A DNA stretch of 64,000 nt from Ruminococcus flavefaciens AE3010 (GTDB taxonomy: Bacteria > Bacillota > Clostridia > Oscillospirales > Ruminococcaceae), in NCBI RefSeq assembly GCF_000526795.1, contig NZ_JAGT01000001.1:1821001-1885000 (forward strand), in the 5' to 3' direction. Shown in pieces: positions 49,381 to 54,115 of the stretch (within the stretch, counting starts at the first letter, position 1; every line of letters starts with the position of its first letter). The position numbers and the translations under genes were made by a program. A model generated the notes under the pieces. That model ran no database searches. It was not told the origin of the DNA and saw only the letters and a list, made by a program, of their open reading frames with translations.

Positions 49381-49435
49381 ATCGATTATATAACGGCTGC
49401 AAGCTTTTGTCAATAACAAATTCATATAAATCCTA

Positions 49436-49464
49436 TTGACAAAATATGTATAACATGATATACT
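49436..49464 (+). promoter_or_regulatory. promoter of the glutamate-cysteine ligase operon
   Basis: TTGACA (49436-49441), 17 bases, TATACT (49459-49464). The transcript would start near 49471, about 34 bases before the leader peptide ATG. Confidence 0.75.
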
Positions 49465-49504
49465 ATACGTAGTAATTCAGTATGTATTATTGGAGGTATT
49501 TGTT

Positions 49505-49585
49505 ATGCTATATCGTTTTGACATGATCAACAGAATCAATATGTGTAAATGTATGACAGTTCTCTCCATGCTTGCTGGATCATAG
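49505..49585 (+). CDS. 26-residue Met/Cys leader peptide
   Basis: An ATG at 49505 with GGAGG 8 bases upstream opens a 26-codon frame ending at TAG 49583. It begins MLYRFDMINRIN and continues with MCKCM (codons 13-17, TGT codons at 49544 and 49550). Five of 26 residues are Met and two are Cys. It is followed by an antiterminator/terminator pair before the ACT gene. This is the layout of amino-acid-sensing attenuators: a ribosome delayed at the Cys (or Met) codons should leave the antiterminator strand free. No function of the peptide itself is needed. Confidence 0.75.
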   Translation: MLYRFDMINRINMCKCMTVLSMLAGS

Positions 49586-49643
49586 TCTTTTTCCATGCCT
49601 ATGAATATTTTAGCAGGAGAGACAGAAATGTCTCTATTTTTAT
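49561..49643 (+). promoter_or_regulatory. attenuator: antiterminator and competing terminator
   Basis: Bases 49561-49572 (TCTCTCCATGCT, in the last third of the leader frame) pair with 49612-49622 (AGCAGGAGAGA) in 11 base pairs with one bulged A. The 3' strand overlaps the left arm of a terminator (AGAGACA 49618-49624, loop GAAA, TGTCTCT 49629-49635, then TATTTTTATT). The two cannot form together. The ACT gene binding site follows at 49648-49652. Confidence 0.8.
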
Positions 49644-49658
49644 TATCGGAGGTATGAA

Positions 49659-49904
49659 ATGAAAAAGATCGAAGTTATTTCCATCGACAGAATAGGTCTT
49701 GTTGGCGAGATCTCTAAGATATTAAGCCGTGTTAACGGCAATATTATCGCTCATTCGGCAAATGTTGCTCCCGACAGCAGCGGCATTAATATATCTCATT
49801 TTCGTGCAGATGTTGAACTTGACATAAAAACCGACAGCGAAACTCTTGCAAGAAGGCTCAGAAAAATAAAGAATGTCAGGCAAGTACGAATAACAGATGT
49901 ATGA
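49659..49904 (+). CDS. stand-alone ACT domain protein
   Basis: An 81-residue single ACT domain: MKKIEVISIDRIGLVGEISK, then the typical second strand and helix, ending RQVRITDV. ACT domains bind amino acids and regulate enzymes by contact. As the first gene of the operon it may sense cysteine, glutamate or another amino acid for the ligase encoded next (10 bases downstream). GGAGG lies 6 bases before the ATG. Confidence 0.85.
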   Translation: MKKIEVISIDRIGLVGEISKILSRVNGNIIAHSANVAPDSSGINISHFRADVELDIKTDSETLARRLRKIKNVRQVRITDV

Positions 49905-49914
49905 GGTGAAAAAT

Positions 49915-51057
49915 ATGAGTGAATATTATTACAGCGGAAAATTCGGAATAGAGCGTGAAACACTGAGAATTGACAGCCACGGCAGAATTGCTCGGACTCC
50001 TCACCCATTCGGCAATGACGAGCATATCACCCGCGACTTCTGCGAAAATCAGGTGGAGCTCGTAACTCCTGTGGCAGGCAGTATCGAAGAGGCTCTCGGC
50101 TATCTTAAAGTGCTTGATGACATTACAAGAAAAAAGCTTGCGGAATACGGCGAGAGCATATGGCTCTACAGCAATCCTCCCCACTTTGACAGCGAGGACG
50201 ATATCCCCATTGCCGACTTCACAGGCGACCATTCTTCAAAGCGTGCATACCGTGAAGTCCTCAAACAGAAATACGGCAAAAAGCTCATGCTCTTTTCGGG
50301 GATACACTTTAATTTTTCCTTTGCCGAGGAGCTCATCAACGAGCTGAATACTGAGGGAGAGGACTTCCGCACCTTCAAAGACGAGCTTTATCTCCGACTT
50401 TACAAGCAGCTCATGGTATACAGCTATCTGCTTGTGCTTCTTACAGCGGCAAGTCCCTACTATGACGCTTCACTTGACAAAGACGGAAAAAGCGGTATAA
50501 TTATGAGTGAATATTCCTCGCTGAGGAACAGCGTCCGCGGCTACTGGAACAAGTTCCTGCCTATACTTGACCACAGGAGCTTAAAAACATTCACAGGCAG
50601 TATCAAGAAGCATATCGTAACAGGCTCCCTGTATTCCGCAAGCGAGCTGTATCTGCCCATACGTCTTAAACCAAAGGGCGTGAACAGCCTTGAAAACCTT
50701 GCGGCAAACGGCGTCGACCACATCGAGCTGAGAATGTTCGACCTTAACCCCTCCGCACCTCTCGGCATAGACAGCAGAGACCTTGAATTTGCACATCTGC
50801 TCATACTGTATCTGCTCTCACAGCCCGATCTTGACTTCACTCCCGAATTGCAGGAGAAGGCAGTCAGTGACCATAAAAATGCAGCACTGCTCAATCCCGA
50901 CGCTGAGCTTTTAGAACGTGCCGAAAAGGTGCTTGAGGAAATGGATAGACATTTCAGTGACAATAAAAAGGCTCTTGAAATAATCGGCTTTGAAAAAGGA
51001 AAAATAAGCGGACGCAAGGTCTGTAATTGCTCTGACAGCACTAAACTCTATAAGTAA
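49915..51057 (+). CDS. glutamate-cysteine ligase (GshA/GshF N-domain type)
   Basis: A 380-residue enzyme joining glutamate and cysteine through the gamma-carboxyl with ATP. Family motifs: GIERETLRIDSHGRIARTPHP, DFCENQVELVTPV, SIWLYSNPP, RAYREVLKQKYGKKLMLFSG and IHFNFSF, then the middle RNSVRGYW and the late HIELRMFDLNP. It corresponds to the ligase part of fused GshF; the ATP-grasp glutathione synthetase part is absent and none is encoded nearby, so gamma-glutamylcysteine or a different thiol may be the product. ATG 49915 with GAGGTG is preferred to the earlier ATG 49897. The C-terminus carries KVCNCSDS. Confidence 0.9.
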   Translation: MSEYYYSGKFGIERETLRIDSHGRIARTPHPFGNDEHITRDFCENQVELVTPVAGSIEEALGYLKVLDDITRKKLAEYGESIWLYSNPPHFDSEDDIPIADFTGDHSSKRAYREVLKQKYGKKLMLFSGIHFNFSFAEELINELNTEGEDFRTFKDELYLRLYKQLMVYSYLLVLLTAASPYYDASLDKDGKSGIIMSEYSSLRNSVRGYWNKFLPILDHRSLKTFTGSIKKHIVTGSLYSASELYLPIRLKPKGVNSLENLAANGVDHIELRMFDLNPSAPLGIDSRDLEFAHLLILYLLSQPDLDFTPELQEKAVSDHKNAALLNPDAELLERAEKVLEEMDRHFSDNKKALEIIGFEKGKISGRKVCNCSDSTKLYK

Positions 51058-51070
51058 GGCGGTGACATAA

Positions 51071-51829
51071 ATGTGCGAGCTTCTCGGCTTCACTTCGGCA
51101 AGAAATACGGATATATCAGACTATCTGCGGACATTCTTTTCCCACAGTGACAAGAATCCTCACGGCTGGGGAATGATGTACGAAACTGACAGGCGTGAAA
51201 TACTCAAGGAAGCCGTCAGCGCGGAAAAAAGCTCATATCTGTCTGACATCATCGACTATATGCCGCCGCAGAAAGCGACTCTCGCACATATAAGATTTGC
51301 CACCGTGGGAACTATCAATGAACGCAACTGCCACCCATTCACGGGTACGGATATTTCCGGCAGGGAATGGACTCTCATACATAACGGAACCATCTTCAAC
51401 AGCAGGCATAATCACCGCTATGCTGCTGTACAAACGGGAGATACGGACTCCGAGCGCTTTTTTCTGTCGCTCCTTGACAATATGAATGAACACATCGCAA
51501 GAAGTGTTCCCAACAAGCGAGAGCGCTTCGAGATAGTGAATAAATTCATCGTTGAAAATGCTCCCAGAAACAAGCTGAACCTGATGATATACGACGGAGA
51601 GCTTCTCTACGTCCACAAGAATCTGAAAAACACACTCTGCTTCAAAAGGCTTGAAGACGGCATTATTTTCTCTACCAAGCCCCTTGATGACGGAGTATGG
51701 ATACCTTTTCCCATGGCGCAGGTAATAGCCTACAAGCACGGTCAGGAGGTCCACCGCGGCGACCGCCACAAGGGCACTTTCGTGCCGACGCTGGAATACA
51801 TTACAGCTATGGACGCAATGTATATTTAA
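51071..51829 (+). CDS. class II glutamine amidotransferase, YafJ/EgtC-like
   Basis: A 252-residue N-terminal-nucleophile hydrolase. Cys2 follows the initiator Met (MCELLGFTS), with HGWGMMY, LAHIRFATVG, NCHPF and EWTLIHNGTI matching the class II amidotransferase fold. EgtC, a relative, removes gamma-glutamate from an ergothioneine intermediate. Next to a glutamate-cysteine ligase such a role (trimming a gamma-glutamyl group from a cysteine adduct) is attractive but unproven. A GGTG site precedes the ATG, 13 bases after the ligase stop. Confidence 0.85.
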   Translation: MCELLGFTSARNTDISDYLRTFFSHSDKNPHGWGMMYETDRREILKEAVSAEKSSYLSDIIDYMPPQKATLAHIRFATVGTINERNCHPFTGTDISGREWTLIHNGTIFNSRHNHRYAAVQTGDTDSERFFLSLLDNMNEHIARSVPNKRERFEIVNKFIVENAPRNKLNLMIYDGELLYVHKNLKNTLCFKRLEDGIIFSTKPLDDGVWIPFPMAQVIAYKHGQEVHRGDRHKGTFVPTLEYITAMDAMYI

Positions 51830-51838
51830 GGAGATAAT

Positions 51839-52288
51839 ATGGGATATAATTTTTACGGCTGGGAAAAAGCCACAGTTTCGCCAATAAACAGTGATTTCAA
51901 GGGCATAGCTTCTCCGCAGAAGCTCTATGACGCTCTTACGGAAATATGGTGCGAATATACCTGTGCTCCGAGACTTCGTGAGAAATGGAGCAAGGATAAT
52001 ATCACTCTGGGACAGTGCTCCATAACCGCCTTTTTAGCCCAGGACATCTTCGGCGGAAAGGTCTATGGTGTTCTTCGTCCAAATGGAAATTACCACTGCT
52101 ACAACGTTATCGGTGATGTGGTATTTGACCTTACAAGTGAGCAGTTCGGCGATGAAAAGCTGGACTATACCGATAACCCCGAGCAGCTTCGTGAGGTGCA
52201 TTTCGCAAAGACCGAAAAGCGTGAGCGGTATGAGTACCTCAAAGCTGAGCTTATAAAATTATTGGAGAAAAAACATGAGCGCAAATGA
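51839..52288 (+). CDS. small protein with a possible Cys-His-Asp triad, YunG-like
   Basis: A 149-residue protein. The conserved-looking core TLGQCSITAFLAQDIFGGKV, then NYHCYNVIGDVVFDLTSEQF, lines up a Cys, a His and an Asp as in papain/transglutaminase-like enzymes. It resembles uncharacterised YunG-type proteins. It lies 9 bases after the amidotransferase in the thiol operon. It may act on a gamma-glutamyl or peptide substrate, but this is a guess from position. AAGGAGA precedes the ATG. Confidence 0.6.
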   Translation: MGYNFYGWEKATVSPINSDFKGIASPQKLYDALTEIWCEYTCAPRLREKWSKDNITLGQCSITAFLAQDIFGGKVYGVLRPNGNYHCYNVIGDVVFDLTSEQFGDEKLDYTDNPEQLREVHFAKTEKRERYEYLKAELIKLLEKKHERK

Positions 52289-52636: not shown

Positions 52637-53812
52637 TTATTCAAATTCGTTGAAATGATCTTCCAGTGATTTGTAAATGTCATCTGAACCCTCGGCTAAA
52701 ATGCTGTCGAGAGCCTTTTTGTATATGTCGGTATTGTAATGTGGTTCGATGTCGTAGTCATTCGTGTAGCCGAGATCAACGATAGTATCTTTAAGTGTGA
52801 GTGTACCCTTCTTGTCAGGATCGGGACTGGACACGCTGTATCCGCCGTATACCTCAGTGTTGATGAAGTCCTCGTCGATATCGATGTACTTCTTGACGTC
52901 CTTGATAGTTTTGTCGTGGTCGGACTGTGTAAAGTGGTATGCCTTGATGAATGCGCGTTCAATTGCTATGAATGTATTGGGAGTGCTGCTGAGAGCGGCA
53001 GTCTTTGCGACCTGACGGCAGCATGGCTGGTTCTCCAGAGCCTTTTCGTGTGCGCAGTAGTATACTACCTTGTAGCCCTGTGACTTAGCCAGCGAAGCAT
53101 ATGGCGAGTAAACGGAAGCCGCGTCGATACCACTGTTGAGTAGAGCTGCATAAGCGTCCTTCTGGCTGTCGAAGTAAACGATGTTCACCTTGTCATCGCC
53201 CTCACCGATCTCGATATGTGCATTTTTCAGCAGTATCTGGAGCTCTGCGTCCTGAACGCTGTTCTTGACTGAAGCGACATTTCTGCCCTTGAGGACTTCC
53301 ACGCCTGCCTCGTCCTTGTCAGTATATTCAGACTTGATAACATAGCCGTGACCATTTGTCATTGCGCCGCCGAAGATAGATACCTCATGTCCCTGACTCT
53401 GGAAAGTAAGTGTAGGAACTGAGCCAATGAAAGCAACATCGAGCTTATCGGATTCGATACCGTTTATGAGCTCGGAAGCGCTTGAAAACTGTGTGAGAGT
53501 AACACTAAGTCCCTCTTCCTTGAAGTAGCCCTCTTCTGCTGCAACGAATGCGAGGAGATGTGCTGTTGAGTTCAGATAGCCGATGTTGATGTCGGTCTTT
53601 TCGGGAGCTCCTATTTCGACCTTAGCTGCTTCTGTTGAAGCTTCCGAAGTTCCTTCTTCTGCTGCACCGTCAGTTGTATTCTCAGCTGTTGTGGTGCTTG
53701 CTGTAGTGGGTTCGCTCTTTTCCGAGGAGCTGAACTGGTTGAGTCCCGAGCAGCCTGTAAACAGTGCCGCAGCGGCAATTACGGATATAAACTTTAATCT
53801 GTTATTTTTCAT
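52637..53812 (-). CDS. ABC-type substrate-binding lipoprotein, SsuA/NMT1-like
   Basis: About 391 residues from ATG 53812 (AAAGGTG upstream; the GTG at 53821 lies within that site). A lipobox (LFTGC) is followed by a Ser/Thr/Glu spacer (about 25-68) and a periplasmic-binding fold of the sulfonate/nitrate/taurine class: INIGYLNSTAHLLAFVAAEE, YFKEEGLSV, SSASELINGIESDKLDVAFI and GSVPTL. Two adjacent cysteines occur in NQPCCRQVAKT. No permease or ATPase gene is adjacent, so the substrate cannot be read from context. A sulfur compound would fit the nearby thiol genes. Confidence 0.85.
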   Translation of the reverse strand: MKNNRLKFISVIAAAALFTGCSGLNQFSSSEKSEPTTASTTTAENTTDGAAEEGTSEASTEAAKVEIGAPEKTDINIGYLNSTAHLLAFVAAEEGYFKEEGLSVTLTQFSSASELINGIESDKLDVAFIGSVPTLTFQSQGHEVSIFGGAMTNGHGYVIKSEYTDKDEAGVEVLKGRNVASVKNSVQDAELQILLKNAHIEIGEGDDKVNIVYFDSQKDAYAALLNSGIDAASVYSPYASLAKSQGYKVVYYCAHEKALENQPCCRQVAKTAALSSTPNTFIAIERAFIKAYHFTQSDHDKTIKDVKKYIDIDEDFINTEVYGGYSVSSPDPDKKGTLTLKDTIVDLGYTNDYDIEPHYNTDIYKKALDSILAEGSDDIYKSLEDHFNEFE

Positions 53813-54115
53813 TTTCGTCACCTTTTAACCTTTTCTTTCTTTTTATTATTTTTTCATCATCTCATTATTGTCAGGCACAACATCGCATTCGCATTGTGCT
53901 TAAAATGAATAGTGTATCTCTCATTATCATCACCTCTTGTCTTTTCTCTGCATTTATCATATCATACGGAAGTCGGGTTGTCCAATACATGAAATGCATT
54001 AGCGTTAATAGGAAAAACGTATATACGAAAAGCTTGAAAAAATAATAATGATATAATAATCGTATTTATTTGGTTCGGGCGCTTTTTATCAGAATAATCT
54101 ATAACAGATCATCAA

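Follow-up and report, generated by a model that had tools for sequence, protein, structure and literature searches.

The 64,000-nt stretch of Ruminococcus flavefaciens AE3010 DNA analysed here (hereafter the window) carries on its plus strand an operon whose first gene (49659..49904) encodes an 81-aa ACT-domain protein (PF13291, E 7.6e-7). The second gene (49915..51057) encodes a glutamate-cysteine-ligase family protein (PF04262, E 2e-59, over the cut-off), which also matches NCBIfam models with scores below their cut-offs. It is followed by genes for a class-II glutamine-amidotransferase-like protein, weakly EgtC-like by its family matches (51071..51829), and a YunG-family protein (51839..52288, PF24585). 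A preliminary description of this DNA had placed a leader ahead of a glutamate-cysteine ligase operon; the operon is indeed there, but with the ACT-domain gene at its head and the ligase gene second. In relatives, a second type of ligase-like gene (L079:1770-3149 and its relatives, a weak GCS2 match below cut-off) directly follows the ACT gene in 13 of 42 ACT loci, and nothing in the window's genome matches it at 1e-10.

The operon is preceded by a compact series of elements on the same strand. A sigma-70-type promoter, TTGACA-17-TATACT (49436..49464), matches the consensus at 11 of 12 positions, with TTGACA at 49436-49441, TATACT at 49459-49464 and a 17-bp spacer; a Shine-Dalgarno (SD) sequence, GGAGG (49492..49496), then serves a leader frame of 26 codons plus TAG (49505..49585, ATG at 49505, TAG at 49583-49585), whose peptide would be MLYRFDMINRINMCKCMTVLSMLAGS and which holds TGT cysteine codons at 49544-49546 and 49550-49552. 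All of these were found just where the preliminary description had put them, as was the terminator that shares bases with the antiterminator: a 7-bp stem, AGAGACA/TGTCTCT (49618-49635), with a T-rich tract from 49637 (whole element 49618..49646). The antiterminator itself had been described as an 11-bp element; its position and the location of its first strand inside the leader frame stand, whereas the helix is in fact bulged, strand A (49561..49572, TCTCTCC-(A)-TGCT, A49568 bulged out) forming 11 pairs with strand C (AGCAGGAGAGA, 49612..49622), which overlaps the 5' arm of the terminator. A weak hairpin, CATAG/CTATG, was seen by eye over the leader stop codon (49581..49603), and the SD of the ACT gene lies at 49648..49652. 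On the opposite strand, a perfect TTGACA-17-TATAAT (49385-49413, minus) points away from the operon; many relatives have a divergent ThiF-like gene upstream, and in the window this promoter would run antisense to a MoeB/ThiF gene.

In the present study, 125 genomes of the genus were searched for the ACT protein, with matches in 52 at 1e-5. Ten weaker matches were not counted as orthologs, and of the 43 loci read one (L085, 46% identity) was set aside as a paralog, leaving 42 orthologs. The leader frame is present in 34 of these 42, and between promoter and ACT gene none was seen in the other eight (L034, L035, L036, L039, L041, L042, L078, L079). Each of the 34 leaders has an SD-like site and 31 have a T-tract; 33 start with ATG, and every one of those 33 contains at least one cysteine codon, typical peptides being MQVYMCKMDNCIISCSAPVVS and MQDCMCKMNMCLISRSVPAE. 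The single deviant, L055, keeps the stems, has ATA in place of ATG and has lost its cysteine codons. A leader frame with its own SD, one mark of a ribosome-mediated attenuator, is conserved in these loci. Scanning named genomes yielded 41 loci, mostly filed under Ruminococcus flavefaciens or Ruminococcus sp. and many rumen-derived, with single records under Anaerotruncus, Clostridiales, Clostridia and Bacillota. The covariance model R1, built from 30 leaders, matched in 33 of the 125 genus genomes at E <= 0.1; under stricter filters, a sample of 295 genomes of the order gave the window's own genome as its sole match, with none outside the genus. The weak R1 match G022:C32 and weak R2 matches in G034, G093 and G123 are not claimed as leaders.

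By a tally over the stretches read, the leader is present at 30 of 31 ACT loci with ligase genes next and at four of 11 without. In G019, no ACT gene separates the leader from the ligase genes, which follow it directly, and the ACT gene of that genome lies elsewhere, without a leader; the tally and this arrangement together weaken the notion that the leader is a property of the ACT gene. There is also an ACT-ligase operon without the leader (L079), and ligase-family genes that start their own unit often do without one (L162, L163, GCL2 copies). In L163 of G032, a similar promoter is joined directly to the ligase gene, leader and ACT gene both being absent there.

Homologous leaders ahead of an SsuA-like (sulfonate-type) ABC importer were also indicated by the R1 model; the best NCBIfam match of this importer is SsuA_fam, below its cut-off. 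Thirty-two genomes matched the importer and 30 loci were fetched and read: the leader is present in five, a contig end truncates one, and no leader was seen in the remaining 24. A model made from the five importer leaders alone finds ten ACT-locus leaders plus the orphan L158 (E <= 0.012), and we therefore take the two groups to be of common origin. The importer leaders are paired in 95.3% of cells, their sequences being too alike for a test of covariation. The orphan, a copy of leader and terminator in G128 (L158:3896-4026, minus), is followed by a LysR-like gene (by eye) rather than an ACT or ligase gene. A case of apparent retargeting to cysK (named from sequence by eye) behind the leader L084 of G061 was rejected: a promoter-like sequence and an SD, both by eye, lie between, and the ACT gene is truncated.

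The alternative stems are conserved along with the leader frame, and the lack of conservation that would have told against the preliminary interpretation was thus looked for and not seen. Alignment A1 comprises 30 of the 34 leaders, the divergent L053, L073, L074 and L083 being left out, and in it the antiterminator is paired in 80.8% of cells against at most 54.7% when one strand is slid. Eight of its 12 pairs have changed on both sides, and double-changed cells number 20 where shuffles give 9.9, none of 500 shuffles reaching 20, although these shuffles leave the relatedness of the leaders in place. Two of the five measures of covariation are less striking, further pair types being equalled in 169 of 500 shuffles and the tally of doubly changed pairs in 34 of 500. 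Over all 34 leaders, the A:C duplex has a mean energy of -20.6 kcal/mol with its own partner and of -16.3 kcal/mol when partners are swapped. The terminator stem GAGACA/TGTCTC is paired in 93.5% of lettered cells; in ten of the 30 aligned leaders (L044, L047-L051, L055, L059, L075, L076) it is replaced by stems of the AGTCTGCC-GCGGA-GGCAGACT type, which still involve strand C. Antiterminator and intrinsic terminator are mutually exclusive, as in a ribosome-mediated transcription attenuator. The stop-codon hairpin reads AGGC/GCCT in most aligned relatives and is paired in 91.7% of cells, with no double changes in the aligned leaders.

Taken alone, the window's antiterminator and terminator show no clear excess over chance: its own A:C duplex has z = -1.63, with 25 of 300 dinucleotide shuffles as good, and between 48500 and 54500 six terminator-like sites were counted against 5.2 expected. 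Single-sequence significance of these hairpins was consequently dropped as an argument. That the single sequence falls within the range of shuffles is what one would see if a chance frame merely lay beside an ordinary terminator; the set of leaders speaks otherwise, with z < -2 in 22 of 34 and pairing that covaries, so that it is beyond chance. The conservation and covariation of the leader, together with its use before a second operon, contradict the idea of a chance frame, to which we give next to no credence.

In most aligned relatives, the SD of the ACT gene lies opposite a CCTGTAAATAAA segment 3' of the leader stop, which would pair with the T-tract and this SD in a 12-bp helix. If this were the main layer of control, the leader would attenuate translation of the first gene. 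The helix is paired in 82.3% of cells against at most 54% when slid, and L057 shows a two-sided change; against this, its covariation is slight (five double-changed cells versus 2.0, reached in 16 of 500 shuffles, and a covariation score reached in 149 of 500), it is AU-rich and may simply mirror the T-tract, and the window's own copy makes only six of the 12 pairs. Translational attenuation as the main layer therefore strikes us as highly improbable, while as an additional layer the predicted helix is suggestive only.

The preliminary description had proposed sensing of cysteine-tRNA (or Met-tRNA) at the cysteine codons. These codons are indeed conserved, with the amendment that methionine is nearly as frequent: the 33 ATG leaders (L055 being outside the cysteine counts) hold 81 cysteine and 72 methionine codons among 671. 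Dinucleotide shuffles of the leaders gave 52.8 +/- 5.7 cysteine codons with a maximum of 72 in 500 shuffles, and the other frames hold 57 of 638 (frame +1) and 42 of 638. Since shuffles and other frames also hold cysteine, the T/G-rich composition accounts for some, and not all, of the excess. Over 25 rows (L055, L057, L046, L081 and L082 left out), the pN/pS of the leader peptide is 0.76, the two other frames giving 1.10 and 0.87; this is a weak purifying selection of the kind expected if few residues matter.

With the TCC-like codon in the antiterminator core as anchor, we could place 38 of 41 leaders (the 34, the G019 ligase leader, the orphan L158 and the five importer leaders), with L055, L057 and L083 unplaced and automatic placement poor for L046, L053, L073 and L074. 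Cysteine stands at codon -5 from the core in 23 of the 38, the top count of cysteine or methionine at any position, although these 23 codons are not independent events, because the leaders are related. With the A site at codon -5 and an assumed footprint of +12 nt from the first base of the codon, the ribosome would end 2 nt before the core, so that this is roughly the final position at which a stall would still keep the core uncovered. Methionine flanks this peak, at codon -4 in 12 of 38 leaders and at -6 in 16 of 38. These flanking counts, the overall abundance of methionine and one importer leader (L198) that has MMYTM near the core and its cysteine codons far upstream would suit the same switch with methionine as main signal, or with cysteine and methionine as equals in the manner of the multivalent ilv-type leaders. 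The sharpest positional peak is nevertheless that of cysteine at -5, methionine reaching at most 16 of 38 anywhere, and we regard a methionine-led or equal signal as unlikely.

To what extent a stalled ribosome could throw the switch was explored by equilibrium folding, skipping L074, L081 and L083, which have no T-tract. In most leaders, stalls far upstream suppress the predicted terminator and a ribosome over the core restores it. With the ribosome stalled at the most effective cysteine codon of each leader, over half of the terminator pairs disappear in 20 of 29 (L055 is also out of this count, and L053 has no cysteine codon far enough upstream to be counted). The remaining nine (L032, the window's own; L033, L044, L049-L052, L058 and L084) show no clear equilibrium switch at cysteine stalls. 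In L032, 5.7 of 6.9 terminator pairs remain with the ribosome at Cys14 and a footprint of 12 nt, and 1.2 with a footprint of 9 or 10. If the folded RNA ends before the 3' arm of the terminator, A:C forms at the cysteine stall in 29 of 29, its absence with the ribosome at the stop being by construction of this test. For the nine non-switching leaders, then, the model would favour A:C only through the order of synthesis or a footprint 2-3 nt shorter. Across the set, control codons are spaced such that a stall would free the antiterminator, with the reservation that nine of 29, the window's among them, lack the equilibrium switch. In the model, a ribosome waiting at most of the codons 5' of the core frees strand A, whatever the residue, which would equally suit a sensor that responds to slow translation in general and to no particular amino acid; the enrichment of cysteine over shuffles and its peak at the decisive codon make such a sensor very unlikely in our view.

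Taken together, these observations argue for a ribosome-mediated transcription attenuator, led by cysteine with a contribution of methionine, in a small sulfur regulon, and we consider this reading probable. RNA polymerase would start shortly after 49464, and a ribosome would begin the 26-codon leader behind it. When Cys-tRNA (perhaps also Met-tRNA) is ample, the ribosome would cross strand A and run to the stop; with A covered, C would pair with D, the terminator would form and transcription would end before the ACT gene. When Cys-tRNA is short, the ribosome would wait at the cysteine codons just 5' of A, leaving A free to pair with the emerging C, so that the terminator is blocked and the ACT-ligase-amidotransferase operon is read. 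Induction by shortage would be sensible for an importer of organic sulfur, but for a ligase that consumes cysteine it would be odd physiology, which raises the question of what the ligase really acts on, or whether the ACT and amidotransferase proteins help to recover cysteine. If the reading holds, it links this uncharacterised ACT/ligase/amidotransferase operon to sulfur supply and offers a point of regulatory access to the way fibre-degrading rumen bacteria use sulfur.

A further element may be common to these promoters. Just 3' of the -10, the window has the dyad ATACGTA-N9-TATGTAT (49465..49487, plus), a candidate operator, and a dyad resembling CATA(G/C)TAAAnCAGTATG occupies the same place at ACT, ligase and sulfonate-importer promoters with or without the leader, similar promoters occurring in relatives of both kinds. 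Of 86 upstream regions, the 13 that lacked a 10/12 promoter were set aside; in the other 73, half sites of 7 nt separated by a 9-nt spacer match at 5.34 against 4.35 in shuffles, other odd spacers being also above shuffles. The strict pattern matches once in the window's genome, at the window's own site, and so by itself shows no regulon there. The dyad is thus a candidate for a common repressor site, whose regulator we presume might be of the CymR/Rrf2 type. Elsewhere in the window, a second short frame with cysteine, MRDTLFILSTMRMRCCA and a stop (53871-53924, minus), precedes a gene for a sulfonate-type binding protein (52637-53821, minus), with no terminator seen by eye. RMRC recurs near the end of this frame in 23 of 23 loci read (30 fetched), and the DNA is strongly conserved (CGAATGCGATGT). 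Among 398 genomes of the phylum, the pattern occurs with at most one mismatch in three, and a reversed control pattern in one; the window's own genome has it once, 72 bases before the second sulfonate-type binding protein, and two others have one 1-mismatch match each. It is tempting to combine all this into a Ruminococcus sulfur-amino-acid attenuon, in which a single mobile module of Cys/Met leader, antiterminator and terminator, governed by a common dyad operator, would stand before the ligase/ACT operon and the sulfonate-type importer, with terminator and SD sequestration as two layers, and a second, unrelated type of Cys uORF (RMRC) before a further sulfonate-type binding protein of this window; we hold this wider scheme tentatively, at rather less than even chances.

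The classical leader-peptide attenuators are those of the trp, his and ilv operons of Proteobacteria. The Ruminococcus leader resembles them in its short frame with control codons and in an antiterminator overlapping an intrinsic terminator, whereas its codons are those of cysteine and methionine, its antiterminator strand is part of the frame itself, ahead of the stop, and its host is a Firmicute; no clear strand-1:2 hairpin was noticed, without a systematic search. In Firmicutes, T-boxes are common, and they share amino-acid-dependent antitermination with the present leader; the window has no Rfam family match at gathering score, T-box (RF00230) included, while elsewhere in its genome there are 11 T-box matches, six of them over the cut-off. 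A Listeria isoleucine leader peptide is also said to act by ribosome-mediated attenuation. His leader peptides are reported before hisS/hisZ in bacilli (PMC2965389). These two are alike in being ribosome-mediated attenuation in Firmicutes and differ in amino acid and genes. Actinobacterial cysteine leaders are described as having their cysteine codons in runs close to the stop, without a conserved terminator hairpin (PMC1262725), and as possibly Rho-dependent or attenuating translation (PMC1262725, PMC9031893, PMC13236596), those of mycobacteria attenuating translation (PMC13236596, PMC9031893, citing Canestrari et al. 2020). Cysteine codons in a short upstream frame and targets in sulfur metabolism are shared with these, whereas the Ruminococcus leader has an intrinsic terminator, a covarying antiterminator and cysteine codons spread before it; the window's leader lacks the run near the stop and possesses the terminator, and does not belong to the polycysteine class. 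Searches of the open-licence literature listed no report of Cys/Met leader attenuation with an intrinsic terminator in Firmicutes. If our reading is correct, the amino acids sensed through leader attenuation with an intrinsic terminator in this group, in which one would expect T-boxes and S-boxes, would come to include cysteine, together with methionine.
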